From positions 1 through 21,012 of the IMG/VR virus record IMGVR_UViG_3300031711_000029: a stretch of 21,012 nucleotides of DNA, one strand, 5' to 3'. This DNA is from a virus. A program made the position numbers and the translations under genes. Of this stretch, positions 1 to 21,012 are shown in pieces; the stretch's first letter is position 1, and every line of letters starts with the position of its first letter. The notes below the pieces were generated by a model, which worked only from the letters and a program-made list of their open reading frames with translations, was not told the origin of the DNA and did no database searches.

Positions 1-3000
1 TGATCAGTTCGTCTCGCCGAGCGCCCACAGCAAGACGGGCCTCCTCGGCCGTCGCCCACAACGGGGCAGTGTCAATATTCGTGGGTGCCCCTTTGTAACC
101 AACCTTGCGCCCTTGCTGGTGCCAATCGCTCTGCACCTCGGCAAGATGGAGTGCGCGTTGACCATCGACCGTGCGATCGTCGAAGCGGACATGGGCGACG
201 ACGTTGGGCTCATCCCAGTGGGGGGAGCGGTATGAAGTCCGATCGAAATCCTCGCGCTCGATTGCCGCGCGTTGCCTCAGAAGGTTGCCGCGATCGCGCT
301 CCGTGTCAGCGTAGGCGCGCCGCAGTTCGTCGTTGGAAGTGAGCGGCTTGAATTCTTCCTGAAGAGCGTCAAAAGCCGCGGCGTACTCAGGAGAGTCCAG
401 CGCAACCCGTTGACTGAGGGCCATTACCTCACGGTTTTTTGCCTCAATTTTCTGTCTGATTGCGAGCGTCTGGCCGGCGGTCAACATGCGGCCACGCATC
501 TCTTCCTGCTTGGCCTCAAGATTGACCCTCTGATCGTCGATCTCCTCTAAGCGAGCATTCCGCGCCGTCTCCGCCGCAGTGCGGTCGCCTGGCAGCGTCA
601 GCAGCAGTTCGCGATAGTTCTCGCCGCCAGGGAGTTTGTAGGATTCGAACTTGGTCGCGCCCGGGTAAGAGTCGAAGCCGTCTTGCTCTCCAATCGCAAC
701 AGCATCAGCGATCGCTTCGTCGTCATCGGCGGGGATATTGTCCACGCCGCGCCTGCGCAGGAACTCTCGCGCCGAAGCTCCGGTGAACGCCTCAAACGGG
801 ATGGGTCCCTTCGCCGTCTCTTCAAGCTGAAGGCTATTCGCCCGCACATAGGCGGCGACGTCGTCGCGCGAGATCGCGCCCTTCTGGCCCTTCAGCCAAT
901 CTTCCAGGCCGAGCCACTTCATCTCTTCCGGCTTCACGCCGGGGGTATTCTTGATCGTCGCGAGCCATTGCTCCGGCGACGCCTTCGCCTGCTTGGCGCC
1001 GGTCACCGCGCGCTCGGCCGCCGAGTAGAAGGTCGGAACGGTCGCGGGCTGATTGAGCGTCCGGCCATCTCCAGCCGCAGCGGTCGCCCCCTCGCCGCCG
1101 CGCACGATCAAGCCCTCGTTGCGGTACATCGCCTCAGGGTCGCCGCGCCCCATGCGCGCCGCGCGCGTGGCGTAGCGGGCCGCCCACAGCGTCGCGTTGG
1201 CCTCGGCCTCATTGAGTGGCCGCCCAGCGTCGAGCAATTTCTGCTTCACATCCTCGAAGATCGCCTGGCGCTGTTCGTCGGGCGTCTTGGGCGCCTCGCC
1301 GAACATGGTCGGCTGAGTCCGCATGAACTCGGCTTCGAGGTCGGCGATTTGCTCCTCGCGGCCCTTGGGGGTGTCGAGCTCCGGCTTGACCATCGGGCTC
1401 GGCGCGTCGGCCATGCGTAGGCCTTCCTCGCGCAGCAGCGCGGGCAGCTCGCGGATGAAGGCGCGGGTAACGGCGGCGATGCTCTCGCCTTCCTTCACGC
1501 GCTTGGCGGCGCGGTTGAGCCCGGCGGAGATCGGGCCGGCGCGCGAGCGCAGTCGATCGAGCGCCTCGACAAGCTGGTCGGCGCGGTCGGCGATGCTCGC
1601 ATTGGCATCGGTGAGAACGTTGCCGGCTTCCTCGATAACGTCGGCCTCTTTGGCAAGCGTCGCGAACACGCGCGCGTCGTTTTTCAGCGCCTTCATCGCG
1701 TCGCCGAAGATCTTCATGCGCTCGCGCATCAGGGTGCGGACTTCGCCGCCTTCCATCTGCTTGAGCCAATCGGTCTGGCCCCCGGAGCCGTCGATCTCCC
1801 GAACCGTCCCAGCCGAAAGCGCGTCGCCGATCAGCATCTTCGCTTCGTTGATCGACTGCGGCTTGAGCTTGACGATGTCGTCCATCAGCGCGACGTGAGC
1901 CTCTGGGGGCGCCATATTGCCGACGAGCGAGGCGAACTCCGGCTTCACCGCCCTGTTGAGCACCATGCCCCAGGCGCCGTCGGACAGATTGGCGAGCCCG
2001 CGGCCCTCGCGCACGTCAGCGCGCCCGGTCGGGATCGAGTCGTCCCAGATTTGCGGGGCGTCGCGCAGGATGCGGGCGATGTCCAACGGCTCGCCGACGC
2101 CTTCCTGGATATTCTTCTTGGCGGCGAGCGCGCGCACCATCGCGGGCGTCCAGCCATCCGCCTCACGCACGAGGAATCCAGGCAACTTGACGTCGGCGTC
2201 GGGAGAGCCGGCGACGATCCGCTTCAGCAAGTCGTCGCGCTGGTGGCCGTCGCCGACCATCATCCGCCCATCGAGCCGCTCATGGATGATGGCGTTGTTG
2301 GCCGCCATGGCGTTCCAGTTTTCCGGCTTCGGCACGACGGAGCTCAGCCGCCCGGTGACGCCCTTGGCGTTGGAATTCCCCTTGTATTGGTACTCCTCCG
2401 CGTCGGTCTCAGTGGTGCGCGGGTCGAACGTCATGTTGCGATAGGCCGGCAGACCGTAGCTGTTGTCGATGAACCGCTCGCCGGCCTGGCCACCCGGCGC
2501 TGGCGCCGCTCCAGCGCCGGTGTCAGGCGGGAAGGCGCCAGGGTCACGCGCGGGCGGCGCACGCATCGGCGGCACGGGCGGTCCGACGGTGTCGGGCGAC
2601 TCGGCCTGTGCGACCAGTTCGCGGAAGACGCGCAGTTGCTCGGACGGCTGCACGCCAGCCTCGCGCGGCGGCGCCGTAGCGGCGTCGTTCATCGCCTGCT
2701 GGACTTGCTCCGACGTGATCGAGGTGATTGGCGGCCGGTCGCGGACGCTCTCCGGCACTTCCGGCGGCGTCGGATAGGGGCGCTTGGCGACAGCGGTCCC
2801 CGCCTCGCCCTCGACCGGCTTGCCTTCCCACAGCGGCGGGGCGATCGCGCGGGGCGCGCCGGCTTCCTCTGCGGCTCCCGTCGGTGCGCCGCCGCTTGGG
2901 CGTGGCTGGCGGGGCGGGGCGGCGGCGGGCGCAGCAGGCGGCGGCGGAGCGCCGCGGTCGCTCCAATCGTGGAGATTGGCGTCGCGGTAGGTTGAGCCCT

Positions 3001-4414
3001 CTTCCAGGCCGTTCTCTTTTTCCCACGCATGCACGCGATCGGTGAAATCCTTGACGAGCGGGTCCATTTCCAGCGTCGGCGCCATGCCTTTCGCCCGGCG
3101 CACGAACTCGTCGATCCACGGGCTGGCGTTCGGCCCAAACAGGTTCGACAAGGCGCGCAGGCCGCCGAAGAAGCCGCCTGCCACGGCGCCGAACACCGCC
3201 GCGTCGCCCATGTCCTTGATCGCCGGCACGAGGCCGCTCTCACGGCCAAACGCGCGGTTGGTCGCCTGAAGGTCGGGCTCTCTAAGTCCTGTCAGCCCCC
3301 AGTTGATGATTGCGGTGTTGACCGCGTGCTCGGCAGTGTTGCCGGCCCAACGCAAAACTGGCGAGGCGAAGCGCTCCCCCCATGTCGCCTCGCCGCCGAA
3401 CGGCACGGCGAGCATCGCAACATTGACCGGATCGCGGAAACTGCCTGCAAACCCGCCGACGGCACTGGCGACATCAGCGGCAAACGGCGAGCTGTAGCGC
3501 GCTGCTTTCTGGTTTGCGGAGCTGGCCGCCTGCTCATAAGAGTTGGCGGCGTCATTGGTGAGGACGCTGAGCGACTTGGTGGGCGAGATTGCGTCCAAAA
3601 CATCGCGGGCGACATCAGAGCCACTGCCGCGGTTCTTGGCGAGGTCGGCGCGCGCCTGATCCCATAGGTCGTTTTGCTTCTGACGCACCAGCGCCCAATA
3701 GCGATCGCCGCCGAACAGGCCGTCGGGATTGGCGGGGTTGAGGTATGTCCCCCACGACTGCTGCTTGGCTTGGTCTTGAAGCGCCGCGATCGCCTCATCG
3801 CGGAAGCCGCCATAGGCGGGGTTCGGCAGCGAGACGCCGGTTGCTTCCTTGATCGCATCGTTGGTGCGCTCGATCGCGTCTTCCTGCGCGAGCGAATAGG
3901 AGAGAGAGCCCAGCGAGTTGTGGATCGTCGCGGCGGCGGACGCAGCGGCCGCAGCAACCGCCGGGTGGGTGGGGAGGTCCGGGAATACGGTCTCGCCGCG
4001 GTCGATCGCGTCCTGGCGCGCCTGCGCCGCATTGACGTCGACGTCGGCCTGCGCGGACGCCTGCGCCTTCTCTTCCGGCGTTTGATTGCCGGTCCAGTAG
4101 TTCGGCGCTGGCGGCGGGGCCGGCGTAGAATAGAGAGCCGCGCCGACGGGCGGCTCCGCCTTGGGAGGCTGCTCGCTGACGACCGAGAACGTCGATGCGG
4201 GATTGGCCTGCGGGCCGCTGTGACGGGTCCAGAAGTCGGCGAGCGAGGAAGGGGTCGTAGCGTCATAGCCCTCGCCGTCAGCGCCTCGCCCCGACAGGAT
4301 CGCGGCTGGCGTCCCCGAGAAGTCAGGGTCGGTGGCGCTCGGCCGCGGCGTCGGCGCCGGGGCGTCGGGAATTGGAGACGAGTTCGCGGTGTCGATCGGA
4401 GAGGCGTCGTTCAT
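1..4414 (-). CDS. Very large phage ejection/polyvalent protein with ddrB-like ParB domain (partial, C-terminus beyond left edge)
   Basis: I translated this frame base by base from the ATG at 4414 to position 2: 1471 codons without a stop, so the gene is real but truncated by the window edge. The ATG overlaps the stop of the upstream 1287-residue gene (ATGA), with AGGTGA four bases before it, indicating translational coupling. Residues 1-110 are Pro/Ala/Ser-rich. Residues about 331-341 and 405-426 are hydrophobic and Gly-rich. A Pro/Ala linker lies near 488-511. Residues about 660-840 resemble the ddrB-like ParB-superfamily domain: EYQYKG at 674, the GDGHQR motif with H724, then KKNIQEG and NLSDGAWGMVLN. 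A long charged helical stretch follows. PTFYS starts at 1127, LPGGENYREL at 1261, SPHWDEPN near 1397 and EVQSDWHQQGRK at 1426, all segments I associate with large phage polyvalent proteins. Its slot after three other internal proteins matches T7 gp16, the large ejected protein. Domain names are from memory of the families. The end and total length are unknown. Confidence 0.85.
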   Translation of the reverse strand, partial: MNDASPIDTANSSPIPDAPAPTPRPSATDPDFSGTPAAILSGRGADGEGYDATTPSSLADFWTRHSGPQANPASTFSVVSEQPPKAEPPVGAALYSTPAPPPAPNYWTGNQTPEEKAQASAQADVDVNAAQARQDAIDRGETVFPDLPTHPAVAAAAASAAATIHNSLGSLSYSLAQEDAIERTNDAIKEATGVSLPNPAYGGFRDEAIAALQDQAKQQSWGTYLNPANPDGLFGGDRYWALVRQKQNDLWDQARADLAKNRGSGSDVARDVLDAISPTKSLSVLTNDAANSYEQAASSANQKAARYSSPFAADVASAVGGFAGSFRDPVNVAMLAVPFGGEATWGERFASPVLRWAGNTAEHAVNTAIINWGLTGLREPDLQATNRAFGRESGLVPAIKDMGDAAVFGAVAGGFFGGLRALSNLFGPNASPWIDEFVRRAKGMAPTLEMDPLVKDFTDRVHAWEKENGLEEGSTYRDANLHDWSDRGAPPPPAAPAAAPPRQPRPSGGAPTGAAEEAGAPRAIAPPLWEGKPVEGEAGTAVAKRPYPTPPEVPESVRDRPPITSITSEQVQQAMNDAATAPPREAGVQPSEQLRVFRELVAQAESPDTVGPPVPPMRAPPARDPGAFPPDTGAGAAPAPGGQAGERFIDNSYGLPAYRNMTFDPRTTETDAEEYQYKGNSNAKGVTGRLSSVVPKPENWNAMAANNAIIHERLDGRMMVGDGHQRDDLLKRIVAGSPDADVKLPGFLVREADGWTPAMVRALAAKKNIQEGVGEPLDIARILRDAPQIWDDSIPTGRADVREGRGLANLSDGAWGMVLNRAVKPEFASLVGNMAPPEAHVALMDDIVKLKPQSINEAKMLIGDALSAGTVREIDGSGGQTDWLKQMEGGEVRTLMRERMKIFGDAMKALKNDARVFATLAKEADVIEEAGNVLTDANASIADRADQLVEALDRLRSRAGPISAGLNRAAKRVKEGESIAAVTRAFIRELPALLREEGLRMADAPSPMVKPELDTPKGREEQIADLEAEFMRTQPTMFGEAPKTPDEQRQAIFEDVKQKLLDAGRPLNEAEANATLWAARYATRAARMGRGDPEAMYRNEGLIVRGGEGATAAAGDGRTLNQPATVPTFYSAAERAVTGAKQAKASPEQWLATIKNTPGVKPEEMKWLGLEDWLKGQKGAISRDDVAAYVRANSLQLEETAKGPIPFEAFTGASAREFLRRRGVDNIPADDDEAIADAVAIGEQDGFDSYPGATKFESYKLPGGENYRELLLTLPGDRTAAETARNARLEEIDDQRVNLEAKQEEMRGRMLTAGQTLAIRQKIEAKNREVMALSQRVALDSPEYAAAFDALQEEFKPLTSNDELRRAYADTERDRGNLLRQRAAIEREDFDRTSYRSPHWDEPNVVAHVRFDDRTVDGQRALHLAEVQSDWHQQGRKVGYKGAPTNIDTAPLWATAEEARLAVGARRDELI

Positions 4415-7400
4415 TCAGTCACCTGTGCATCGTTGGTGACGGTCACCATGCCGGGGGTGTTGCGGTATGGCTGCGGGGCTGGCGCCGGAGCGCGGCCCGC
4501 TGGCTGGGCGGGCGCGGCAGGCGGCATCGTTGGGCCGGTGTTGGCGATGTAGGAGCCCTCATTGCGCTTGCGCAGCGAGGCGTCAAGCGACGGGTCTTGG
4601 AGATCAAGCATCCAAGGCTTGCCCGTCGTGTGGTCCATGACGACATGGTCGCCGTCCACCTGGCCGTCGCGATAGACCTGATACTTGCCGCGGAACACGC
4701 CATCGCGATCTGGCATCGCCATCAGGGTCGAGCCGTTGATCTGGTTGGCGCTGATCGGCTGGCCGTTCGCTCCCATCGGCGGGTTTTTCATGCCCTGCAA
4801 GTCGGCGTTGGTGATCGAGCCGATGACCTTGTTGAAGTCGTCGGCCTTGATCTCGCGCGGCACGACAACCTTCCCCGCATCGTGATTCCAGAACGTCCCT
4901 GGCGTCATGCGATCGGTCAGGCCGCCATACTGGGCGCCATCGTGGACGGAAGCGCCGAGCGCGCGGTTGTAGTTCGAGTTGATCAAGTCCTGCGCGTTGT
5001 CGAGCATCCCCTTGGGCTTGGCGTCAATGCCCTGGCGCTGCGCGTCGGCCGTCATCAGGATATTCGCCTCGCCGCGCACGCGTGCTTCGCCGTCGGGCCC
5101 GAAGTGCGACAGCGCCGTCCCAACCGGGTCCGTGTAGGATTTCAGGACGCTGTTGGAAAAGTCGGGGAGGTCCTTCGACGCCACCTTGTCCTGGCGCTGG
5201 TGGACCACGCTGGCGATGTCTTGAATGATCTGCGGATCGTCGCCGGCAAGCGCGTGAGCGCCGACCGCCTGGAATGCCGGAACGTCGCCGCCGATCTCGC
5301 GGAACGCCGCGGCCGCGTCCGGGCCGCCACCTTTCACGAGGTTCTCGGCCAGCGTGACCATCGGGTCGCCGCCCTGCGCCGCGATCTTGCGGAATTGCGA
5401 TTTCTCGTCCGGGGTGAACACCGGCGCCGTGCCGGGCGCGAGGCCGAAGCCCTTCTCGACCACGGTCCGATCGACGAGCCGGCCTTCCATCTTGGCGGCG
5501 AGTTGGGGGTCGCTCGGATCCAACGCTTTCGTGCCGTTCGGCAGGAACCCGGCCCGTGAGGCGCGTTCGTAAGGGTCGGTCTTGATGTCGGACTGGTAGG
5601 TCTTCAGGTATTTCTGCGAGGCGTCGAGAGTCGAAGCCATGATCGGCAGGTATGGATCGTCGGGGTTCCGCGCCTTGGCATAGGTGAACGCCGCCGCCTG
5701 TTGAGAAACGTCCGCCGCCACTTCGGCCGGTGACTTGAGCCGGTAGCTCATGAGCTGGTTGCGTGCCTGGTCAAGCTGGGCGAAACGCAGCCGCACCGCC
5801 GGGTCCGGAGAGTTGGCGTAGGCTCCCTTCAGCGAGTCGTATTCCTTCGGCTCGATCGGCTGGCCGCTGGCGAGGTCGCCAATCCGCGCATCGAGGTCCT
5901 TCTGCGCGCTGGTCGAATAGCGCTGGGCGTCGGCCGCCTTCTGTTTCTGGATCTGGTCGATCTTCTGCTGGAGCTCAAGGCCGAGCTGAGCCTTGTCTTG
6001 CGGGTGCATCCAGTCGATCGGCATGCCGGTGCGATATGGCGCGGGCGCTCCAGGGGCGCCGGACGCGCGCACGTCGGGCGCCTTCTGGAGCGTGCCGTCC
6101 TGCATGACGAACGACCATGAGCCATCCTGCGCCGGCGTGACGCCGGTCGCGCCCTTCGGCCACATTGTCTCGGGCGGGATGAGGTGCGGGTTGACGACGC
6201 CACCCGGCAGCTTTGGCGTGATCCCTTGGGTCGCGTCGCTCTTGACCCCGGCGTCAGCCTGGGCGACCTGCTGCGGCGGCGGGGCAACACCTGGGACAGC
6301 GTTGCCCTTGGCATCGGTAGCGACCAGCGTCCCGTCAGCAGCAGGCGCCCACGGGCCGCCAGCCGGCGACATGGCGCCGACCTTGGCCGCCATGGCGTTA
6401 GGGGACGACGCCACATCGTTGGCGGGCGCGGCTGTTGGGGCTTCCCACGTCACCTTGCCGCCAGCGATCGGCGGCAAGCCGATGAATGGGTTGGCCGTCA
6501 TCCCAGCCGGCATGCCCGCGGCTGCGGTGACGCTGGATCCAAACCCAGCGCGCTTCGCCACGTCGGCATAACCATCAGCCGTCGGATGAACTCCATCAGG
6601 GCTGATCTTGGTCGGATCAAGCGGGACGAAGGATGCGCCATTCGAGGTCGCGGCCTTGTTGAGCGCGTCGTTGAGCGACAGGCCGCTGACCTTGACGGCG
6701 TCGAACTTCGGCCCGACGCCGACGATCGTCACTTGGCTCGGATCGAGCCCCTTCGCCTTGAGCGCCTTGAGCTCGGCCGCGACATAGGCGGCCGGGTCCT
6801 GCCCCGGGTCATTCGAGGCTCCGGTCGAGAGGATGATCCGCTTGCCGGCGAGTTGCTCGGCTGGGAGCGCGTTGATGTTGGAGAGGACGGTCTGCGGCGG
6901 CAGGCTTTCCTTCGCCCAGCCTTCGGTCGCCTTCTGGCCGACGGCGCCGGCCACGCCGACGCCAAGGCTATCGCCGATCGCGCTGAAGGAGCCGCTCGCG
7001 GCAGCGGCCGCCGAGCCCGGCTTGCCGCCGAGTACCCCGACGTTCTGGTCAAAGGAGCGGATCGTGTTGAGGCGGCCGGTGTAATTGTCGCCGGCGCGCG
7101 GCGTTGCGTCGGTGTAGCCGCGCGGGCGCTCGTAGTGCATCTCGGCGTCGGCGATTTGCTCCGGCGTCGAGGCGGCGTTCACCTGCGCGTCGATCGGGCT
7201 CGCGCGGAGTTCCTGCAAGGCGGAGACGGCTTGCGTCTGCCAATCCTTGCCGCGCATGTCGAGCCGGGTGTCCTTGTGGCCGTAGAGGCCATGCCCTTGA
7301 GGTGCCCCATTGGCGTCCGGGTCGTGCACGGCGTTGGGGTTGAAGGAGCTTTCATTGGCCCCAGCCCCGGTCAGCATCAACGCTTCTTTCGGCGTCGCCC

Positions 7401-8274
7401 CTTGCGATACGAGGAATTGGTAGTGGGCTTCCGGCGACAGCGTCCCGCTTTCTCCAGGCTGACTCCACGGCTTCGTGTAAGGCGCATTGACCGTGCCGAA
7501 CCCGCTCACGCCCGGCGGCGTCGGCTGGTCCCACGCCGTCGTGCCGGACGGCCCGAAGGTGAAATACTTCTCCAGGGCTTCAAGCCTCGACGTGTCGCCG
7601 GTCTTCTCGGCCTCGTCTATCTGCGAGCGCACCCACGCGCGCCCGTAGGAAGCGCCGAACTGCTGGCGGCGCTGGACGTATTGCTCGGGGGTGATCGCCC
7701 CGCTCTGCATCAAAGAAGAACCGCGCTGATTCCATGCGTCGATCGCCGCGCCGCGCTGCGCCTGCCCGTCGGGCGTGTCAGGCGCGCCAATCGCCGACGA
7801 GATCACATCGTCGCCCTGCGTCATCCAGTCGGCGGTGTTCGCGTTGTTTTGCAGCTTGTTGACGTGGCCGGTGACGCGCTCCTGATCCTCGGTGAGGTCG
7901 GCGCTCTTTAGCGTCGCCCATCGGTTGGCTAGATTTGGGTCTGAGAATGTAGCCTTCGCCGCGTTGAAGTTGTCGCCGTAGGCTTTAGTGAAATCAGTAG
8001 CCGCGGCAGGATCCGTGGTTTGCGACAGGTCTGTGGTTGTCTTGATGCGACCGACCGCATAGGCGGCATCGGCGTTTGCCATCTGCGACGCATCTTGCTG
8101 GCGCGCTTGGACGGCTCCAAACTGCGCCATGTCCGAGCCCAACGTCTCGAAGCCGTGGGCAAACGCCTGCGCGCCCTGCGCCAGGGCTTGCGGGTTCCAG
8201 CCTGGCAAGCCCTGGCGCCGCGGCAGCTTGTCGGGAAGATCGCCTACGTCTTGTTCGGTGGGGAGCTTTGCCAT
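4411..8274 (-). CDS. Internal virion/ejection protein (gp15/gp16-type) with lysozyme-like and SGNH-hydrolase-like domains
   Basis: This 1287-residue protein starts with ATG at 8274. Residues 1-250 are helical, rich in Gln, Ala and Asp, like internal core proteins. Residues about 278-405 resemble a phage-tail lysozyme/transglycosylase domain: SPEAHYQFLVSQGATPKEA, then AGANESSFNP with E308 as the likely catalytic acid, then GHGLYGHKD. Residues about 425-580 carry SGNH/GDSL blocks: GDS with S436 as nucleophile, STGASND with N488, and DGVHPTADGY with D560 and H563. Residues 600-760 are a Pro/Gly/Ala-rich linker. Residues 760-1220 are mostly helical, with a Gln/Lys-rich coiled-coil-like part near 780. 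The C-terminus is Pro-rich. In T7, ejected core proteins form a channel across the envelope and one cuts peptidoglycan, so a wall-opening role at infection is inferred. The enzymatic activities are predicted only. The gene ends in a four-base overlap with the next large gene. Confidence 0.9.
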   Translation of the reverse strand: MAKLPTEQDVGDLPDKLPRRQGLPGWNPQALAQGAQAFAHGFETLGSDMAQFGAVQARQQDASQMANADAAYAVGRIKTTTDLSQTTDPAAATDFTKAYGDNFNAAKATFSDPNLANRWATLKSADLTEDQERVTGHVNKLQNNANTADWMTQGDDVISSAIGAPDTPDGQAQRGAAIDAWNQRGSSLMQSGAITPEQYVQRRQQFGASYGRAWVRSQIDEAEKTGDTSRLEALEKYFTFGPSGTTAWDQPTPPGVSGFGTVNAPYTKPWSQPGESGTLSPEAHYQFLVSQGATPKEALMLTGAGANESSFNPNAVHDPDANGAPQGHGLYGHKDTRLDMRGKDWQTQAVSALQELRASPIDAQVNAASTPEQIADAEMHYERPRGYTDATPRAGDNYTGRLNTIRSFDQNVGVLGGKPGSAAAAASGSFSAIGDSLGVGVAGAVGQKATEGWAKESLPPQTVLSNINALPAEQLAGKRIILSTGASNDPGQDPAAYVAAELKALKAKGLDPSQVTIVGVGPKFDAVKVSGLSLNDALNKAATSNGASFVPLDPTKISPDGVHPTADGYADVAKRAGFGSSVTAAAGMPAGMTANPFIGLPPIAGGKVTWEAPTAAPANDVASSPNAMAAKVGAMSPAGGPWAPAADGTLVATDAKGNAVPGVAPPPQQVAQADAGVKSDATQGITPKLPGGVVNPHLIPPETMWPKGATGVTPAQDGSWSFVMQDGTLQKAPDVRASGAPGAPAPYRTGMPIDWMHPQDKAQLGLELQQKIDQIQKQKAADAQRYSTSAQKDLDARIGDLASGQPIEPKEYDSLKGAYANSPDPAVRLRFAQLDQARNQLMSYRLKSPAEVAADVSQQAAAFTYAKARNPDDPYLPIMASTLDASQKYLKTYQSDIKTDPYERASRAGFLPNGTKALDPSDPQLAAKMEGRLVDRTVVEKGFGLAPGTAPVFTPDEKSQFRKIAAQGGDPMVTLAENLVKGGGPDAAAAFREIGGDVPAFQAVGAHALAGDDPQIIQDIASVVHQRQDKVASKDLPDFSNSVLKSYTDPVGTALSHFGPDGEARVRGEANILMTADAQRQGIDAKPKGMLDNAQDLINSNYNRALGASVHDGAQYGGLTDRMTPGTFWNHDAGKVVVPREIKADDFNKVIGSITNADLQGMKNPPMGANGQPISANQINGSTLMAMPDRDGVFRGKYQVYRDGQVDGDHVVMDHTTGKPWMLDLQDPSLDASLRKRNEGSYIANTGPTMPPAAPAQPAGRAPAPAPQPYRNTPGMVTVTNDAQVTE

Positions 8275-8341: not shown

Positions 8342-8962
8342 CTAGTAGCCGAGATCGTAGCTGACGGCCGTCTGCGGCCCGTAGCCGCCGGCGTACCCGC
8401 CGCCCTGCAACTTCATCGGCGTGCTATAGCCGCTGTAGGGGTTGCTCAACGACAGCGAACGGAACATCGAACCGACGCCGCTCGCCATCGTGCCGGCCGC
8501 GGAGAGTGTGTCACTCTGTTGGGTGATTTCGCCCTGGTACTTCGCCGCTTCGCCCTGATTGTAGAGCCCGGCCGCTTGGTTCTGCCCCTCAGACAGGCTC
8601 ATCAGCGCATTGTATTCGCCGCGCTTGGCGATGTTGCCACTGAGGTTGAGGACGGACGGCGAGGTCGCATCCACACCGCTCGCCGCGGCGCGCGCCTGCA
8701 AGGTCGACTGGACAAGGCGCGTCTGGCGGCGCTGCTCTTCCATCTGCCGCTGGCCCATTGCAGTCGAGCTTTCAGCCTGCTGCATGGCCTCTTTCTGCTG
8801 GTACTCACCCATCGCCTTGGCGTTTGCGCCAGCGGCCATCGTCCCCGCAGCACCAACGGCGGCGCCAGCGAGCGACGTGACGGCGCCCATCACCCCCAAC
8901 GTGATCGGATCGAACGCCGCGGTTTCCGAGAAACTAAGGAGTCGATCAAAGGTCCTTGACAT
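8342..8962 (-). CDS. Internal virion protein, gp14-like
   Basis: This 206-residue protein begins with ATG at 8962, inside the end of the gp13-like gene (17-base overlap), so translation is probably coupled. Near the N-terminus, residues about 20-50 form an Ala/Gly-rich hydrophobic stretch (VMGAVTSLAGAAVGAAGTMAAG) that could insert in a membrane. It is followed by a Gln/Glu/Arg-rich helical segment around residues 55-90 and a Gly/Tyr/Ser-rich C-terminus. This layout, a short hydrophobic start then Gln-rich helices, is typical of the T7 gp14 type of internal core protein, and T7 gp14 is about the same size (196 residues). Position between gp13-like and the long ejection proteins supports the call. 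No catalytic motif is seen. The assignment rests mainly on layout and gene order. Confidence 0.75.
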   Translation of the reverse strand: MSRTFDRLLSFSETAAFDPITLGVMGAVTSLAGAAVGAAGTMAAGANAKAMGEYQQKEAMQQAESSTAMGQRQMEEQRRQTRLVQSTLQARAAASGVDATSPSVLNLSGNIAKRGEYNALMSLSEGQNQAAGLYNQGEAAKYQGEITQQSDTLSAAGTMASGVGSMFRSLSLSNPYSGYSTPMKLQGGGYAGGYGPQTAVSYDLGY

Positions 8963-9329
8963 AGATCACCCCCCCGGGTGCCACTTCCTTATGAAAACCG
9001 AGACGTAGGAGCCATCTTTCCCCGCTCTCGATTGTCGTGGCAGTCGCGACCACCCGCTTGATGCCGCCATTTTTAGCCTGCGCGAGCCCCGCCAGTCCAG
9101 CTTTGTGCAGTGCAACCGGGTACTTGTGGGCCTCGGGGGCGAGATCGGCGAAGGCCAGCCGCACGCCGTTTGGCAGCATGCAGATCCCTCCAACGCCAAT
9201 CACCTTGCCGTCGGCCTTCCCCGCCAGCGCCAGAACCCGATAGGGCGGCAACTGCGCGCCGCCGGAGAAATTGGCGGTGTATTCGGCGACGTCCGCGCGG
9301 GTCGCCGGCCCGACCTCGATCTTGACCAT
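8946..9329 (-). CDS. Small GNAT-like / gp13-like virion-associated protein
   Basis: This is a 127-residue protein. Its ATG at 9329 shares a base with the TGA of the tail nozzle gene (TGATG), a standard coupling arrangement. The sequence has the feel of a minimal N-acetyltransferase (GNAT) fold: an opening beta strand KIEVGPATRADV, an R-x-x-A-L-A strand, the GKVIGVGGICML strand pair, a helix rich in Ala, Leu and Lys, then RVVATATTIESGERWLLRLGF, which resembles the closing strand and 'LGF' turn of GNAT proteins. The usual acetyl-CoA pyrophosphate loop (Q/R-x-x-G-x-G/A) is not clear, so enzymatic activity is doubtful. In T7-like phages the gene directly after the tail nozzle is gp13, a small protein needed for virion morphogenesis. 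That role fits the position. Confidence 0.65.
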   Translation of the reverse strand: MVKIEVGPATRADVAEYTANFSGGAQLPPYRVLALAGKADGKVIGVGGICMLPNGVRLAFADLAPEAHKYPVALHKAGLAGLAQAKNGGIKRVVATATTIESGERWLLRLGFHKEVAPGGVIYVKDL

Positions 9330-12157
9330 CAGTTCGTCGATTCAATGGAAAAAGTCACCCCGTTGATCGTCGCTGGGTTTGGCGAGGCAGATTGGAGATA
9401 GAGGCGCGGATCGGTGTCGTGGTCGGAGCCGATCTCGAATTGCTTCGAGTCGTATTGCGCCCAGACCGTCCCGTCGGCGACGAGCGCTCCATACTCCACC
9501 TCCGGCAGGTCGTCGAGCTTGCCGTTCGGCGTGAAGATGCCGTTCGGCTGATTGTCGGGGTCGTTCGGCGTCCACGTCCCGTAGCGCACGCCCTTCCACC
9601 ACGTATTGGTCAGCACGAGGCCGCAGTGGTCGAGGCGCTTCACCTGATTGATGGCTGAGCCCATTTGCGCCGCGTAGGCGAGCTTGGCTGAGATAAATTC
9701 GGCCTGATAGGGCAGGCCGGCGACTGCGGCGATGACCGCGACGCCATTGGGGATGGTGACTGTCCCGTTTGATTGGACAACGGCCGTGCCGAGATCGCCA
9801 AAGTGGCCAGCGCCGCCGTCCCCCCAGATCGCCACGGTCTTGCCGATGAGGTGATTGAAGCCGGAAAGGATGGTTGCTGGCGCCCCCTGATAGACGAGGT
9901 TGGCGTCGACGCATTTCGAGATCGCCGCCCCCTGGCACTCGTCGACCCGCGCCCACTTCTCCAGATAGCGAACGTGCTGGCCCTGGATGACGCGGTTGAT
10001 GACGAAGTAGACCTGATCCTCGCGAAAGCCCGGCAGGATGGCGATGCCTTCGATCACGCCGTCGGTCTGCATGCGCCACCAAGCGATGACGTCGTCGTCG
10101 ATGTCGTAGATCAGCGACGCCATGATTCCGTCGGTGCGGATCATATTGATGCGCGTGTCGGGCTGGCGCTGCACAGCCATGTCGACGAAGCCGGGAAGCC
10201 CGATGTCCGGATTCAAGCGCGTGAGGTCGCTCGGCTTATAGTTGTAGATCCGAATGTCGTAGACGAGATCGTAGAGCCGCCGGCCCGACTGGTCGAGATA
10301 AACCACGCGCTGATCGACAGCGACCGCCTGCAAGCCGTAGGCGCCATTCGTCACGGAGCGCCGCAGAATGAAATTCGACGGCGTCAGCGGGCTCTCGATC
10401 GCGTCCGACATGGCGGCGAGGATCGACGTGTCCGCACCAGCGAGCATATGGTCGATCGACACCATCCAATTGATGTTGGCGATCGGGCCTTGGCCGACGG
10501 CCGTGTCGAGCGGTGCCGCATCGCCGGTCGCATCGTAATCGAAGTTCGTGTAGTCGTCGGAAATCGAGCCCCAAAACTTGTCGGCGCCTGACCACCACAG
10601 CCGCCCTTGGTGCAGAGTTGTCGCCGTCGGATAGCCCTGCCCGGCCGACCACTCGGATTGCAGCCAGTCGTGCGTCTTGTCTGTGCCCCAGAAGGGGACA
10701 AGCACTTCAGCGTTGGCGACGGTCGCACTGGTGATTGATGTGATGTGACAGACGCCGTAATTGCCGCCGCCGCCATAATTGATAACGATGACCGCGCTGC
10801 CGCTGACGTAGTTCCCCGGCTCGAAGCCTATCTGATACCAGACGATCTCGTTGTTGAGGCCGTCGGTGATCGTGTCGCTTTGGTTCGAGGTGTACGTCTT
10901 GTAAGTCGAGAACCCGGTCGTCGCGCTGGTGAACGAGCGCTGCACGCTGATCGTGCCGGTCCATGTTCCTGAAATCGTGAATGTGAAATTGCGGTCTGCG
11001 GTCGCCGTATTTTTGACGTTCCCGGAGCCGTCGACCGTGCTGACGTAGGAAACGCCGGACACGCGCAGCGCATCGGTGAAGGTCCCGTCAAACGAGACTG
11101 TCTCGTTGATGTATTGCCCGGTGTGGAAGAGCCGGAACAGCGTACCGACATCGTCCACGGTGAAAAGGCCGCCGCTCGCCGTCAGCGTGACGTTGCCATA
11201 GAGGGCGCTGGGCTGAAGCGTGAGCGAAGCATTGCTCGGCGCACCGGACATAGGGCCCTTGATCGGGCGATATTTGACGATCGACCAGCTTGTCGGCGTA
11301 TAGCGGTTGATCTGGTATTGAGGGTATCCGGTGCAGGCGACGTAGACGAAGTCGCCAGATTGCGTGGAGCGGATGAGCGATGGAGTGACCGAAGGCGATC
11401 CAATCGCGTCCGCGCCCCACGGTGCCGGCAATGTGAAGACGCCCGCGGCTTCGATGGCGATCGAGGTGACCTTCACCTGCTGCGCCCATGTCGGCAGCGA
11501 TTGCGCATTCGTGTTAGCGTTCTGGACGGAGATCGTCGCTGAAAACTGCGGGTAGACCGTCGTCGCTCCAGGCGTGAAGGCGAGCGAGTAGGTCCCGGTG
11601 TCGAGTTTTGCGACTGGGAAAACATCATCGAGACCAGCCGTCGTCCCGATCGCGAAGTTGATCGGTCCATTAGCGACGACAATGCGCAGCGCGTGTTCGG
11701 TGTTGAGGTCGCCAGGCGCCACCGACATGGCGACGCTCGCATTCGCGGTAGCGCCGTTGTTCATCCCTGAGAAAGACAGGCCGCCGCTTGTGCTTGATGT
11801 CGCTGTGCCGGTCGTTGTGATCGACCACGAGCCGAAGGCCGGGATCGTCGTGGCGACCGCCGCGCGGGTGACGAGCGCATCGTCGATCCAAATCCGCATA
11901 AGGTTGGCGGTAAGTTCGATCAGCGCCGTGTCGGCGAAGGCGGCGACGAACGGGATAATCTTGGTCGGCGCATTGTTGTAGATGCCACCGACATATTGCG
12001 TCCCTGGCCGCAGCATCATTGGCCCGAGCACGCGCGGCAGATAGTTGATCTGGGATTGCGCGGAAAGGCGCAGATGCTCGATGTCGCTGCGGGCCATTGC
12101 CAGCAGGCTGACTTCTCCACGGTTTAGGGCCGCGAGAATTTGGTTCTGCCGAGCCAC
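9329..12157 (-). CDS. Tail nozzle protein, tail tubular protein B-like (gp12-type)
   Basis: This 942-residue protein starts with GTG at 12157 (residues MARQNQILAALNRGEVSLLA). AGGAGG lies five bases upstream, which decides the start. The N-terminal 70 residues, with LNRGEVS and RVLGPMMLRPGTQYVG, match the opening of podovirus tail nozzle proteins, where N-G-E-x-S and 'RPG' motifs recur. Residues about 100-480 are Thr/Ser/Gly-rich beta structure. Near residues 505-535, GYPTATTLHQGRLWWSG and FWGSISDDYTNFD give the signature I associate with these nozzles. It would form the distal part of the short tail that contacts the cell surface. T7 gp12 is 794 residues, so this one is longer, mainly in the beta-rich first half. 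It follows the tail tube gene after a 19-base gap. Confidence 0.88.
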   Translation of the reverse strand: MARQNQILAALNRGEVSLLAMARSDIEHLRLSAQSQINYLPRVLGPMMLRPGTQYVGGIYNNAPTKIIPFVAAFADTALIELTANLMRIWIDDALVTRAAVATTIPAFGSWSITTTGTATSSTSGGLSFSGMNNGATANASVAMSVAPGDLNTEHALRIVVANGPINFAIGTTAGLDDVFPVAKLDTGTYSLAFTPGATTVYPQFSATISVQNANTNAQSLPTWAQQVKVTSIAIEAAGVFTLPAPWGADAIGSPSVTPSLIRSTQSGDFVYVACTGYPQYQINRYTPTSWSIVKYRPIKGPMSGAPSNASLTLQPSALYGNVTLTASGGLFTVDDVGTLFRLFHTGQYINETVSFDGTFTDALRVSGVSYVSTVDGSGNVKNTATADRNFTFTISGTWTGTISVQRSFTSATTGFSTYKTYTSNQSDTITDGLNNEIVWYQIGFEPGNYVSGSAVIVINYGGGGNYGVCHITSITSATVANAEVLVPFWGTDKTHDWLQSEWSAGQGYPTATTLHQGRLWWSGADKFWGSISDDYTNFDYDATGDAAPLDTAVGQGPIANINWMVSIDHMLAGADTSILAAMSDAIESPLTPSNFILRRSVTNGAYGLQAVAVDQRVVYLDQSGRRLYDLVYDIRIYNYKPSDLTRLNPDIGLPGFVDMAVQRQPDTRINMIRTDGIMASLIYDIDDDVIAWWRMQTDGVIEGIAILPGFREDQVYFVINRVIQGQHVRYLEKWARVDECQGAAISKCVDANLVYQGAPATILSGFNHLIGKTVAIWGDGGAGHFGDLGTAVVQSNGTVTIPNGVAVIAAVAGLPYQAEFISAKLAYAAQMGSAINQVKRLDHCGLVLTNTWWKGVRYGTWTPNDPDNQPNGIFTPNGKLDDLPEVEYGALVADGTVWAQYDSKQFEIGSDHDTDPRLYLQSASPNPATINGVTFSIESTN

Positions 12158-15008: not shown

Positions 15009-16058
15009 TCACTCGATTTTAGCGAACTCGCCCCATGCCAACTTCGCCTCTTCGCAATAGGCCGCGTAGGCTTGCTCCTTCGTCCAGAACGAGCCTATGC
15101 GGCGACCGACGCCATCGACCTTGATCCATGCACCCCACTTACCCTCTGCGGCGATGTAGGAGACGCCGCGGTAGCCGCTTGTGTTGCGGCTGGAGGTCAA
15201 AGCATTGGCGATGTTTTGGGATTGGGTTGCCTCCCGCAAGTTGCAGAGGCGGTTGTCGTCGCGGATGTTGTTTTTGTGGTCGATCTTCTTGGCAGGCCAA
15301 ACGCCGTGAGTGATCACCCACGCCAACACGTGCGCGGGATATTGCTTGCCGAACAGTCCAACCCGCCAATAACCGTCTGGATTGAGACGGCCTGCCACCG
15401 TGCCGATCTGCCCGCGGAAACCAAGCGCGCGCCTCCATTTCAATTTGCCGGTAGCCGAATCGTAGGACAGAGCATCCCTGACTTCGTCGACTGTCGGCCG
15501 CTCATTCCGACGGCGCGGCTTTTTCTCGCGCGCCGCTGGCGACGGCTTCACGAAGTCGACCCCGCGAGCAAATTCTCCATAGGTCGCGATCGCCGCCTTT
15601 TCGTAAGCCGCCGCCGCTTCCTCTATCGTCTTGAAGACTCCGAGATACTGCTTGCCGAGTTGGGCCTGCCAGAGGCCGCTGGCCTTGTGCCAGCAGACAC
15701 CCTTCACGCCAGACCTGTTGGTGATTGGGCGCCCTTGGTTCGCCATGTTTTGCGCCTGCGTGCACTCACGCAGGTTGCGAATCCGACAGTCGGCCTTGTC
15801 GCCGTTCCGATGGTCGAGACGCTCTGGCCAGCGCCCATGCACCCATGCAAATGCGGCGTGATGGGCAAGCACTATTGAGCCGTCGATCCGAATGCGGCGA
15901 TAGCCATCATCCTTGTCGACGCGCGCGCCGGCCTCTTGCCCGGCAATGGCGCGACCGGACGTGATCAGCCACGCAAAAACGCCCGTCGCCGGGTCATAAG
16001 CGACATACTGCCGCAGCCGCTCGATCGACGGGCGCTTGGCGAGATTGGTTCTCACCAT
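15009..16058 (-). CDS. Double HNH-AP2 homing-endonuclease-like protein
   Basis: This 349-residue protein (ATG at 16058) contains the same two-domain unit twice. Unit 1 (about 12-165) has an HNH part with HHAAFAWVHGRWP, LDHRNGD (D82, H83, N85) and RNLRECTQAQNMAN, then an AP2-type DNA-binding part from NRSGVKGVCW to YGEFA (114-164). Unit 2 (about 189-347) repeats it: AHVLAWVITHGVWP, IDHKNN (D260, H261, N263), CNLREATQSQNIAN, then NTSGYRGVSY to WGEFA (292-346). A basic linker, KKPRRRNERP, joins them. Single HNH-AP2 proteins of about 150-200 residues are common free-standing homing endonucleases in phages. Both units keep the HNH core residues. The gene lies between vWA and capsid and is unlikely to be needed for the virion. 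It could instead be a nicking or packaging-associated HNH, but the AP2 pairing favours homing. Confidence 0.88.
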   Translation of the reverse strand: MVRTNLAKRPSIERLRQYVAYDPATGVFAWLITSGRAIAGQEAGARVDKDDGYRRIRIDGSIVLAHHAAFAWVHGRWPERLDHRNGDKADCRIRNLRECTQAQNMANQGRPITNRSGVKGVCWHKASGLWQAQLGKQYLGVFKTIEEAAAAYEKAAIATYGEFARGVDFVKPSPAAREKKPRRRNERPTVDEVRDALSYDSATGKLKWRRALGFRGQIGTVAGRLNPDGYWRVGLFGKQYPAHVLAWVITHGVWPAKKIDHKNNIRDDNRLCNLREATQSQNIANALTSSRNTSGYRGVSYIAAEGKWGAWIKVDGVGRRIGSFWTKEQAYAAYCEEAKLAWGEFAKIE

Positions 16059-16190
16059 GGGTCGCCGTCTTTGCGGCGGCGATACCAGGTGCGCCTAGAC
16101 ATCCCGAGTGCGGCCCACGGCTGTTGCGCCTCGATCGTTGAAGCGCGCTCCGACGTCAGCGGGCGCCGGAAAGGCCGTGGGCCTTCGCTT
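16052..16190 (-). other. Helix-turn-helix-like reading-frame remnant without a start codon
   Basis: Between the vWA and HNH-AP2 genes, a minus-strand frame ending at the TGA at 16052-16054 encodes LTSERASTIEAQQP followed by WAALGMSRRTWYRRRKDG. The second part looks like a resolvase-type helix-turn-helix. The frame is open from inside the end of the vWA gene, but the only ATG lies within the motif. It ends two bases past the HNH-AP2 ATG, in another frame. It is most likely a fragment left by rearrangement, or a non-ATG-started small protein. Confidence 0.4.
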
Positions 16191-16824
16191 TTGGGGCATG
16201 CGGACCGAAACGAGCGCGGTCTTCATCCGAATAGTTCATCGCTACCCCGCGCGCGCCGTATGAAGCCCGCATGCTGGCGGTCGCACTCATTGTCTCCGCA
16301 AAATTGGCTGAGTCGACCGACATAGTCTGACCACGCAGATTGCCAAGGTCAGCCCCTTGGGCGGCGTTGTCGAAGTCGGCGCCGAGGAAGATAACCTGCC
16401 AACCGCGCGCGCGGCACCGATCTAGGAGCTTCTTCGCAGACTCGCGATTGTGTTCGCGCGATTCGTTCTCATGGCCATCGGTCATAATCACGATCGCCGA
16501 TTTCTCCGGCGCGTCCGCATCGGCGACGGTAACGAGACGACCGACGGCGTCATAAAGCGGCGTCATCCCGCGTGGCGATACTTCGTGGTCGCCGATCGGC
16601 TTCCATGCCGACGCGACAACATCTTTCCGCAAAACGTCAAAAGGGCCAGCGCTGTCGAACACGGCGACCGTGACGAGAATGTTCTTGGTTTCCTTGTCCT
16701 TGGCGAGCCCTTGAACGTAGGCATTCACGCCACCGAGCGCGTCAGACCAGCGCGACGCCATCGAACCAGAGCGATCGAGCAGGATATAGTCGTGCTGCGC
16801 TGCCACCTTCTTTGCCTTAGCCAT
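16156..16824 (-). CDS. von Willebrand factor A (vWA) domain protein
   Basis: This 222-residue protein starts at the ATG at 16824, with GGGAG seven bases upstream; the preceding TTG codon is less likely. Almost the whole protein is one vWA domain: the first strand HDYILLDRSGSM carries the D-x-S-x-S metal site (D17, S19, S21), the second site is T88 in RGMTPLYDAVG, and the third is D116 in IVIMTDGHENES. A further strand, GWQVIFLGAD, follows. The last 60 residues are polar, with Ala/Ser-rich helix. An intact MIDAS metal site usually means metal-dependent binding to a partner protein. No MoxR-type ATPase or other usual vWA partner is near. The gene follows the terminator after the scaffold gene, so it may have its own promoter. 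Its role in the phage is unknown. Confidence 0.9.
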   Translation of the reverse strand: MAKAKKVAAQHDYILLDRSGSMASRWSDALGGVNAYVQGLAKDKETKNILVTVAVFDSAGPFDVLRKDVVASAWKPIGDHEVSPRGMTPLYDAVGRLVTVADADAPEKSAIVIMTDGHENESREHNRESAKKLLDRCRARGWQVIFLGADFDNAAQGADLGNLRGQTMSVDSANFAETMSATASMRASYGARGVAMNYSDEDRARFGPHAPKAKAHGLSGAR

Positions 16825-16858
16825 CAAATATCTCCCATCGCCGGGGTGGCGATGACAC

Positions 16859-18422: not shown

Positions 18423-20150
18423 CTATACGGCCCCGCCCTGTTGCGGTTGCTGCTGGGGCAAAATGCCGCCTTGTTGCAACATCGTCGCTGCCTGGCCGAT
18501 CTTGCCGGCGATCGTCGCGCCCTGGTCGGCGGCGCCGGCAACTTGCTGCATGGTCTGCGCCTGCGCGGCGGCTTGGCGGTCCTGCGCCTTCTGCGGATCG
18601 GCGATCTCTTTGGGTACGAGCCACTTGGCCGGCGCGCCAGAGCCGGTGACGGCGTCGCGGAACGCCTGGTCGACGTCGACGTCGTGCTTGACGGCAGGGT
18701 CGATCGCCATGCCGAGCTGCAAGAGCTGGCCGACTTGGGTGAACGCCTGCGCGTTGGCGCGGGTTGCCGCCAGGGTCAGCGGGCTGTCGAAGATGAAGCG
18801 GATGTCCTGACCGCGCAGGAGCGGCGGCATCATCGCGACCGGGCCGAAGCCGTTCATGCGCAGGATCATCTCGAAGGTCTGATCGCAGACCGCGCCGTTG
18901 TATTCCGACTGGATCGGCTCGAATAGCGGCGTCGTGTTGCGGATGAACTCTTCCCACAACTTCGAGACCTCGAAGGCGGTCCGGGCATGCGAGGTGTCGG
19001 GAAGGCGGATTTGGTTGAGGTAGTGGCCGTCGGCGATGATCTTGGCGATCCGCGACTCGCGGTCGACGCCCCAGCCGAGGTTGGGCTGCGTCTTCATCAG
19101 CGGCTCAAGCGCGGGGCCGGTGCGTTCATCGTATTCGGCGTCGACCCACGTAATGCCCCCGGCAAAGCCGTTGACGCCGCCCTGGATCACCTGTCCGACC
19201 GCCTTCATCGGTGGATCGACCGCCTTCTGGCCGGCTTCGAGCAGGGTCAGGGTGATCTGTTGGAGCATGCGGGCATCGGCGATGTTGACCACCGTCGGCG
19301 GCGCGTAGCCGTAGCCGAAGCCGGGGACCGTTTCCCAACGCGGGCAGATATAGCCCATCTGCCATTGGCCGATCTCTTCGAGGATGGTGTCGTGGTCAAC
19401 GCAGACCCAAACCGAGGTGAAGGGCAGCTTGCGCTTGTTGGTGCGGCGATCGCCGCCGGGCGCGCGCTCCTGCTTCGCGGAGCCGATCGAATCGTAATTA
19501 TCGGTCGGCAGGACGATGTGCCGGCACTGCACTTCGCCATGCGGATCCTTATCAGCCGCCGTCCTCACGGTGTCCGGCACCGTGTCTGGGAACAGCTTGA
19601 CGAGATTGATGTTTGAGATCTTGCGCTTGACGTGGACCTCGTTGACCCTGCCGCTCGAATCCTCTGAGAAGGCGACGTCGCGCATGTGATGGGTGCGGAA
19701 GGCGAGGCCGGTGAAATCCTGGTTCGGCCGCAGCGAGATGCAGGCGTTGCCGATCGTGACGAAGTCGCGGTCGCCCTCTTTCGAGGAACGTGACCATCCC
19801 GACATATTGTCGTACATCGCCTGTCGCATTTGCTCGCTCGCCCAATCGAGCCATATGCGGCAATGCGTGTCGGTGTTGATTTTGTCGGATTGCGTGCGCG
19901 CGTGGAACCACGCTTGGCCCGGAGGCCGCAGCATCGCGCTGATCGAATTAGCGAGGTCGCGCGAGGCCATCGCCGGAATGCCGGTCATCAGGTGGGAGGC
20001 GAACTCCATGCCCATGGAGCGAACCCAGGTGTAGTCCGCGCGCTCGGGATAGAACTGCTCCGCGGTCGCTTGCCATAGGCTAAGTATTGGTAATCGCTTA
20101 GCAAACAGACTGTCGGAAATCCCGATGAGGTCCTTAGCCCGCTGGTCCAC
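18423..20150 (-). CDS. Portal protein (head-tail connector)
   Basis: This 575-residue protein starts with GTG at 20150. GAGGAGG six bases upstream makes the non-ATG start convincing. It matches podovirus head-tail connector proteins (T7 gp8, 536 residues): residues 14-40 LFAKRLPILSLWQATAEQFYPERADYT, then TGIPAMASRDLANSISAMLRPPGQAWF, the helix-rich WLDWASEQMRQAMYDN, and later GFGYGYAPPTVVNIADARMLQQITLTLLEAGQKAVDPPM, the family's best conserved stretch. The C-terminus is Gln/Ala/Pro-rich. It would form the ring through which DNA enters and leaves the capsid and to which the tail tube attaches. The first 17 bases overlap the 3' end of the HNH gene, whose coding sequence contains the portal ribosome binding site. 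Confidence 0.92.
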   Translation of the reverse strand: MDQRAKDLIGISDSLFAKRLPILSLWQATAEQFYPERADYTWVRSMGMEFASHLMTGIPAMASRDLANSISAMLRPPGQAWFHARTQSDKINTDTHCRIWLDWASEQMRQAMYDNMSGWSRSSKEGDRDFVTIGNACISLRPNQDFTGLAFRTHHMRDVAFSEDSSGRVNEVHVKRKISNINLVKLFPDTVPDTVRTAADKDPHGEVQCRHIVLPTDNYDSIGSAKQERAPGGDRRTNKRKLPFTSVWVCVDHDTILEEIGQWQMGYICPRWETVPGFGYGYAPPTVVNIADARMLQQITLTLLEAGQKAVDPPMKAVGQVIQGGVNGFAGGITWVDAEYDERTGPALEPLMKTQPNLGWGVDRESRIAKIIADGHYLNQIRLPDTSHARTAFEVSKLWEEFIRNTTPLFEPIQSEYNGAVCDQTFEMILRMNGFGPVAMMPPLLRGQDIRFIFDSPLTLAATRANAQAFTQVGQLLQLGMAIDPAVKHDVDVDQAFRDAVTGSGAPAKWLVPKEIADPQKAQDRQAAAQAQTMQQVAGAADQGATIAGKIGQAATMLQQGGILPQQQPQQGGAV

Positions 20151-20781
20151 CGAGAGCCTCCTCTATTCCGAGACCTCTCTTAAGGCGAACCCTCACACCG
20201 CTCGCCGTAAACGATGGGGCGGCGACTCGATATATGTCCATGAACGGCATCAAATTGCCGCGGTAAACGTATCTTGGCGTCGTGCGTTTGTTGTTGTTTT
20301 GCTCGGTGCGCGTCGCCCACCGCACATTACCGGGGAAATACCCCTTGTCGTTGTCAATGCGGTCGACTGTGTGCTGCGGGCTGGGGCGCGGACCGACGTT
20401 GGCGAAGAATGCCTGAAAACTCACGCGCCACTCATCGCAGACGGCAATGCCGCGCGAAGAGTACTCCTGGTAGCGCTTGTCGCTCGGGGTGTAGCAACGC
20501 GCCAGCATGCAGCGCCACGATTTATATTCCGGCGACTGCGACATGCCGTGCGTGACCGCCGCGTCCGCCAATTCCTTCTGTCGCGCCGTAGCCGTCTCGA
20601 CATGGTAGCAGCCGCAAGACTTAGTGTTGCCGCACTTGAGATTTTGGCCGACGACAGAGACGTAATTCCCGCAGTCGCAGCGGCAGAGCCATTTGATTGG
20701 CCCAGACGGCGCGCATCCGTCCCGCCGCAACACCGCGAGGCGCGCGAACTTCATGCCGGAGAGATCGACAAGCGCCGGCAT
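20134..20781 (-). CDS. Zinc-ribbon HNH-type endonuclease-like protein
   Basis: This is a 215-residue protein. I chose the ATG at 20781 because GGGAG lies seven bases upstream and the frame above it overlaps the end of the neighbouring gene in another frame. Residues 8-60 form a likely zinc ribbon: MKFARLAVLRR, then C33, C35 and C37 in CRCDCG, then C50, C56, C58 and H60 in KCGNTKSCGCYH. Residues about 88-160 carry the HNH-like part: YKSWRCMLARCY, GIAVCDEW, then H137, D140, R141 and D143 in HTVDRIDNDKGYFPGNVRWAT. The C-terminal part may bind DNA. Such proteins are widespread in phages as free-standing endonucleases. It is wedged between a small structural gene and the portal, consistent with an insertion, and it overlaps the portal start. 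Confidence 0.82.
   Translation of the reverse strand: MPALVDLSGMKFARLAVLRRDGCAPSGPIKWLCRCDCGNYVSVVGQNLKCGNTKSCGCYHVETATARQKELADAAVTHGMSQSPEYKSWRCMLARCYTPSDKRYQEYSSRGIAVCDEWRVSFQAFFANVGPRPSPQHTVDRIDNDKGYFPGNVRWATRTEQNNNKRTTPRYVYRGNLMPFMDIYRVAAPSFTASGVRVRLKRGLGIEEALGGPAG
20157..20163 (-). promoter_or_regulatory. Ribosome binding site for the portal gene, inside the HNH gene
   Basis: GAGGAGG on the minus strand lies six bases before the portal GTG and within the last codons of the HNH gene. It decides the portal start. Confidence 0.85.
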
Positions 20782-20794
20782 TGAAGGGCTCCCG

Positions 20795-21012
20795 TCACTG
20801 ACCAGAACCGAGGGATCGGCTGGCATAGGTGTCGGCGGCGGTGGCGACTGGGGCGCGCGACTGGCCGTTTGTGCCCTGTTTGCCGGTGATGGTCGAGGCG
20901 CGGCCGTCACGCCCAGCCGCGGCGAGCATCGCCTGCTTCTGAGCTTCCAGCACGGCGGAGGAATTGGCGTCGGGCTGCGGCGCCGCGGCGGCGACTTGCG
21001 GTGTGGCGGGGG
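20795..21012 (-). CDS. Small pre-portal phage protein (partial, N-terminus beyond right edge)
   Basis: This frame enters from the right edge and ends at the TGA at 20795-20797, giving the last 71 residues. It is too incomplete to show a start. The fragment is Ala/Gln-rich, then has AVLEAQKQAMLAAAGRDGRASTITG and ends with ADTYASRSLGSGQ. Small proteins carrying a 'GR-x-G-R-x-S-T-I' motif and a 'D-x-Y...L-G' end are common directly before portal genes in podophages. T7 gp7.3, a tail assembly protein, has the same place and size class, but I cannot claim homology. It is clearly a real gene: the alternative frame used by the longer version of the HNH gene here is low-complexity Pro/Ser sequence. 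Confidence 0.7.
   Translation of the reverse strand, partial: PATPQVAAAAPQPDANSSAVLEAQKQAMLAAAGRDGRASTITGKQGTNGQSRAPVATAADTYASRSLGSGQ

Follow-up and report, generated by a model that had tools for sequence, protein, structure and literature searches.

A lysozyme domain and an SGNH esterase-like domain in one predicted ejection protein of a T7-type podovirus

Peptidoglycan O-acetylation confers lysozyme resistance on bacteria. At C6 of MurNAc it prevents cleavage by lysozymes as well as by lytic transglycosylases, and it is taken off by Ape enzymes of the SGNH type (PMC1199599, PMC6174289). How phages deal with wall O-acetylation when they enter receives little attention in the literature found. 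The question is raised by IMGVR_UViG_3300031711_000029, a 21,012-base virus fragment from IMG/VR which was analysed over its full length (the window). An intact open reading frame (ORF) with an ATG start, at 4411-8274, encodes a protein of 1287 amino acids (aa) with a lysozyme domain and an SGNH hydrolase domain; all features of the window described here lie on the minus strand. Why are the two carried in one chain? The protein is probably an ejection protein that pairs a phi29-gp13-like muramidase with an SGNH esterase acting on peptidoglycan, most likely on its O-acetyl groups. Direct support exists for the domain content, the conservation of catalytic residues, the predicted folds, the gene slot, the cassette exchange and the recurrent fusion of SGNH to muralytic domains; enzymatic activity, the substrate, the sequence of the two steps and the route of delivery are what we infer.

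In the proposed mechanism, the 1287-aa protein would be packed within the capsid and ejected into the periplasm during infection. The SGNH domain would strip ester groups, most likely O-acetyl at C6 of MurNAc, from the strand due for cutting; the muramidase, otherwise blocked by such groups, would then open the wall for the DNA channel. Tethering the two activities could allow one strand to be both cleared and cut. Another ester on or near peptidoglycan is a possible substrate of the SGNH domain.

Domains of the gp15-slot protein

The 1287-aa gene sits between a gp14-type internal virion protein gene (8342-8962; phrog_418, E=1.8e-26) and the gene for a large gp16-slot protein (2-4414; phrog_10691, E=3.8e-36), which is an open ORF that runs off the record. 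This is the place of gp15 in T7-type phages. No match of the protein to a T7 gp15 family was found in Pfam or PHROGs; the gp15 assignment follows from the T7-type gene order, that is, from position and not from a sequence family. The slot named in the original prediction is borne out by the order of genes from portal to gp16 slot. The residues it quoted are likewise all in place: E308 in GANESSF (starting at 305), GHGLYGH at 327, GDS at 434-436, N488 in STGASND (starting at 483), and D560 and H563 in DGVHP. A frameshift or assembly artefact was considered and ruled out by the intact ORF, by the ATGA overlap with the next gene at 4411-4414, and by homologues in the same slot.

The lysozyme domain occupies residues ~278-405 (7060-7443). 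When the isolated domain is searched, the phage-tail lysozyme family PF18013 matches residues 283-388 (E=5e-7; 30.4 bits, curated cutoff 28.2); with the full 1287-aa protein the score is 23.1 bits, under the cutoff. A profile of three lysozyme sequences has phi29 gp13 as its top match in the PDB (E=9e-4), and the profile alignment places E308 (codon at 7351-7353) on gp13 Glu45. Glu45 is the suggested catalytic residue of gp13, and its counterpart in the related GH184 muramidase has been proved essential by mutation (PMC10394673). E308, the predicted catalytic residue of the window protein, is invariant in 7/7 lysozyme relatives. Identification of this region as a phi29-gp13-like muramidase domain is thus well supported; muramidase activity is predicted from sequence and model.

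The SGNH domain lies at residues ~430-578 (6541-6987). Its matches to GDSL/SGNH families are weak, yet consistent: PF13472 (E=3.5e-4), the NCBIfam Rv0518-type GDSL lipase (E=4.5e-5) and phrog_19273 (E=2.4e-6). A profile built from 19 divergent relatives, which are 30-44% identical to the window domain, matches solved SGNH hydrolases in the PDB; no Ape chain is among the sequence matches of this profile. Nine residues are invariant over the 19 aligned relatives: Gly434, Asp435, Ser436, Gly477, Gly485, Asn488, Gly519, Asn535 and His563. These include the predicted nucleophile Ser436 of the block I GDS (codon at 6967-6969) and Asn488 of block III (codon at 6811-6813), where the window has the spacing GxxN and not GxN. 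Block V is Asp560-Gly-Val-His563 (6586-6597), with His in 19/19 and Asp in 12/19. As an SGNH hydrolase domain the region is well supported by profiles and model; its hydrolytic activity is putative. The matches of the lysozyme and SGNH domains are both better than chance.

An AlphaFold2 (AF2) model of residues 270-590, built on a 23-row alignment of the window and locus proteins, has a mean predicted local distance difference test score (pLDDT) of 87.3. Apart from the model ends, the sole segment with pLDDT<50 is a flexible linker between the enzymes at residues 418-427 (6994-7023). Foldseek matches the lysozyme half to phi29 gp13 (0.98), lysozymes (0.96-0.99) and a GH184 muramidase (0.91). 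Absence of a lysozyme-type fold in residues 278-405 had been named beforehand as a refuting outcome; the residues fit such a fold. The SGNH half matches PAF acetylhydrolase, TesA and others at a probability of 1.00. Its top structural matches in the PDB are PAF acetylhydrolase, TesA, sialate O-acetylesterase and CE3 esterase, with OatA lower; the CE3 esterase 5b5s (probability 1.00) is one among many SGNH enzymes matched. The model of 430-578 agrees with the SGNH fold originally proposed, in that the S436, N488 and D560/H563 motifs sit at those ends of strands and loops where the fold has them; in such a fold the Ser and His side chains would be in contact. The other refuting outcome named beforehand, a fold that keeps S436, D560 and H563 apart, did not arise at this level of motif placement. 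The top match in BFVD comes from an uncultured phage, is labelled 'SGNH_hydrolase domain' and has 393 alignment columns, exceeding either domain alone. An earlier AF2 model made from one sequence scored low (pLDDT 44), though its PDB matches were mostly SGNH already.

Partners of the SGNH family

Relatives were gathered by SGNH motif or profile only, blind to muralytic domains. A block III pattern in IUPAC code matched just 2 contigs in IMG/VR. In both, the SGNH domain directly adjoins a transglycosylase domain, and in an alignment with the window their SGNH domains are 36-42% identical to it. A second scan gave 39 loci and no locus in bacterial and archaeal genomes. No match was obtained when plasmids were searched for the SGNH domain, in a full-length tblastn of the 1287-aa protein against 50,697 phage records, or in single-sequence scans of IMG/VR and genomes with the whole protein or the SGNH domain.

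In large proteins the SGNH family shares its chain with several kinds of muralytic domain (L-numbers are labels for compared records and loci). PF18013 is the partner in the window and in L118, L130, L142 and L155. SLT or SLT_3 is found in L119, L121, L124, L127, L134 and L138, and weakly in L122; the cell-wall hydrolase PF07486 is found in L120 and L137. The partner is PF00959 in a tape-measure-like protein of a Helicobacter pametensis prophage (DBB24053.1) and an M15 peptidase in the cultured Synechococcus phage S-H38 (QPB07895.1). The peptidoglycan-binding domain PG_binding_1 (L129, L133) and LysM also share a chain with the family. L126 has a PHROG match only, plus a lysozyme-like stretch read by eye. 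Exceptions to fusion are the short stand-alone SGNH genes of L128, L136 and L140 (~195 aa) and a more distant set of SGNH proteins of 131-156 aa. In S-H38, the SGNH and M15 gene (L158:4273-7863) is adjacent to a PF18013 lysozyme gene (L158:502-4269), and the pair lies next to a baseplate hub gene.

In 19 records totalling 1.02 Mb, 8/8 SLT and 5/5 PF18013 matches fall inside the SGNH-bearing ORF, and such ORFs make up 4.9% of the sequence. The naive chance for 11/11 distinct SGNH-muralytic co-locations is ~4e-15, which overstates the case, as lytic domains favour long virion genes. Co-location is not a selection effect, because the locus searches used SGNH motifs only. The SGNH tree is poorly resolved, with 2/18 branches supported; the best tree requires 12 partner changes, and given this poor support a number of independent fusions is not claimed. 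Judged by sequence, this is a phage SGNH family without a recognised host homologue that has been repeatedly fused to five unrelated muralytic folds. These fusions, and those to peptidoglycan-binding domains, lend support to the original idea that the esterase helps the cutter, the substrate itself being a prediction. A wider reading, plausible but tentative, is that these are phage peptidoglycan de-O-acetylases with no recognised host relatives, which in ejection, tape-measure and tail proteins are recurrently fused to a muramidase, transglycosylase, cell-wall hydrolase or endopeptidase, and that they form a general counter to wall O-acetylation at genome entry.

The partners also bear on where the ester would be. 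The SGNH domain might instead de-esterify capsule, O-antigen or outer-membrane lipid on the way in, with the lysozyme acting independently. Most described phage SGNH domains are indeed polysaccharide deacetylases of tail fibres or spikes (PMC9862828, PMC7693777), and the structural neighbours of the window domain include lipid and thioester hydrolases. A surface target is nevertheless unlikely: ejection proteins work once the surface layers are passed, the family is joined to peptidoglycan hydrolases and peptidoglycan-binding domains and not to spike or fibre domains, and the two fibre-like SGNH proteins found through PF13472 in related phages (L096, L097) belong to a different family.

Several points weigh against a peptidoglycan O-acetylesterase. 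The PF13472 score of the SGNH domain is under its curated cutoff. M15 and PF07486 partners do not cut the glycan in the manner that O-acetyl blocks; fusion to them suits peptidoglycan as the substrate, though not the removal of O-acetyl specifically. The oxyanion Gly of block II, present in 16/19 relatives, is replaced by Ser457 in the window, and D560 is lost in 7/19 relatives; lowered or altered activity is therefore possible. The same two features would fit a carbohydrate-binding module with little or no catalytic power, which keeps the muramidase on its substrate. Such a module is rather improbable, as the invariance of Ser, Asn and His in 19/19 relatives at such low identity is hard to explain without catalysis.

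Cassette exchange and known systems

The protein was compared with those of close relatives found via the portal (L090, L093, L094) and of L109 and L113. Relatives keep the C-terminal core and mostly the N-terminus, and the enzyme cassette in the middle varies. The N-terminal segment (residues 1-244; 7543-8274) is kept regardless of the enzyme that follows, with 25-37% identity to L090, L093 and L094 by blastp. The C-terminal ejection-protein core (residues ~682-1277; 4444-6231) is 34-38% identical to L090 and L093 and 28% to L109. The middle of L090 holds a strong PF18013 domain alone, that of L113 a lysozyme only, and that of L109 no enzyme. L093 has a BPSL0067-type domain and a lysozyme which is 56% identical to that of the window. 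L094, which shares only the N-terminus with the window protein, has a T4-type PF00959 lysozyme. The L093 protein (L093:19-3861, minus strand) is another two-enzyme pair in the same slot; its BPSL0067-family domain, at residues ~313-399 beside the lysozyme, is presumably NlpC/P60-like. Two further PF13472 matches in related phages, on primase/helicase-like proteins, are probably spurious.

This mosaicism allows a reading in which the pairing arose by chance, with no functional coupling and the SGNH domain as a passenger. The central cassette is freely exchanged among relatives, and no SGNH of the window-type family was found elsewhere among 50 related records, mostly portal relatives. Mere chance is very unlikely: the same SGNH family flanks unrelated muralytic folds, on either side, across different virion types, and the naive chance of co-location given above is low even if biased.

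The proposed pairing of an esterase with a glycan cutter has partial precedents. Like the window protein, phi29 gp13 (morphogenesis protein 1; PDB 3CSQ/3CSR) is a virion protein with a PF18013-type muramidase, its Glu45 corresponding to E308, and a second domain; that domain is M23/LytM-like and not SGNH, and gp13 belongs to the tail and not to the ejection proteins. Gp44 of Staphylococcus phage phi11, also a virion protein, combines a lytic domain with an SGNH domain (PMC4876445, PMC5380687). It differs in being a baseplate protein of a Gram-positive siphovirus with an endopeptidase/Tal N-terminus, and its SGNH domain resembles a carbohydrate esterase (2WAO). The Ape1 of Neisseria cannot do without the transglycosylase LtgA as its partner (PMC7083599); here too an SGNH esterase that takes off a group blocking cutting is partnered with a glycan cutter, but these are host enzymes on separate chains, and no sequence match of the window SGNH family to Ape was found. 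The gp15-like proteins of K1E and K1-5, and T7 gp16, are capsid-internal and have a wall-cutting domain swapped between the gp15 and gp16 slots (PMC8954989), whereas an esterase domain is not reported there. G7C gp63.1-type tail-spike or fibre deacetylases also have an SGNH fold within a virion protein (PMC7693777); they are surface-exposed, aimed at a receptor or polysaccharide and joined to other domains, and the likeness is at fold level.

A 2017 review lists five two-domain virion lysins, phi11 Gp44 included, all from phages of Gram-positive hosts (PMC5380687). Lysozyme on gp15 homologues and the swapping of lytic domains in ejection proteins are already known (PMC8954989). In the open-access literature no paper was found that describes an ejection protein with an esterase, or the window SGNH family. 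Two-domain virion lysins and the Ape1-LtgA pairing are known; an esterase within an ejection protein appears undescribed. If the proposed function is true, an esterase fused to a wall-cutter would be a direct answer to wall O-acetylation, and would explain why one SGNH domain accompanies many unrelated lytic folds. The fused proteins would be ready-made two-enzyme lysins for O-acetylated walls. The recurrent pairing suggests a common, apparently undescribed route around wall modification.

Other genes of the window

The source virus is a divergent T7-type podovirus. On the minus strand the genes run in the order HNH endonuclease, portal (PF12236, E=1.7e-60), Bbp19-like, scaffold-like, VWA-domain protein, second HNH endonuclease, capsid (PF19821), two small proteins, tail tubular A (phrog_394), tail tubular B (phrog_376), phrog_4177 protein, gp14-type protein, 1287-aa protein and gp16-slot protein. 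The VWA-domain protein (phrog_7371; 16156-16827) lies between the scaffold and capsid genes. The HNH endonuclease genes, at 15009-16058 and 20134-20910, interrupt the structural block; the former has two HNH_3-AP2 units in tandem.

The phrog_4177 protein (127 aa; 8946-9329) is conserved between tail tubular B and gp14 in the relatives too, and its position is roughly that of T7 gp13. It looks acetyltransferase-like by eye. Tail tubular B (9329-12157) has 942 aa, compared with 712 positions in its family, and most phage matches start at residue ~262. This suggests an extra N-terminal domain, common to close relatives.

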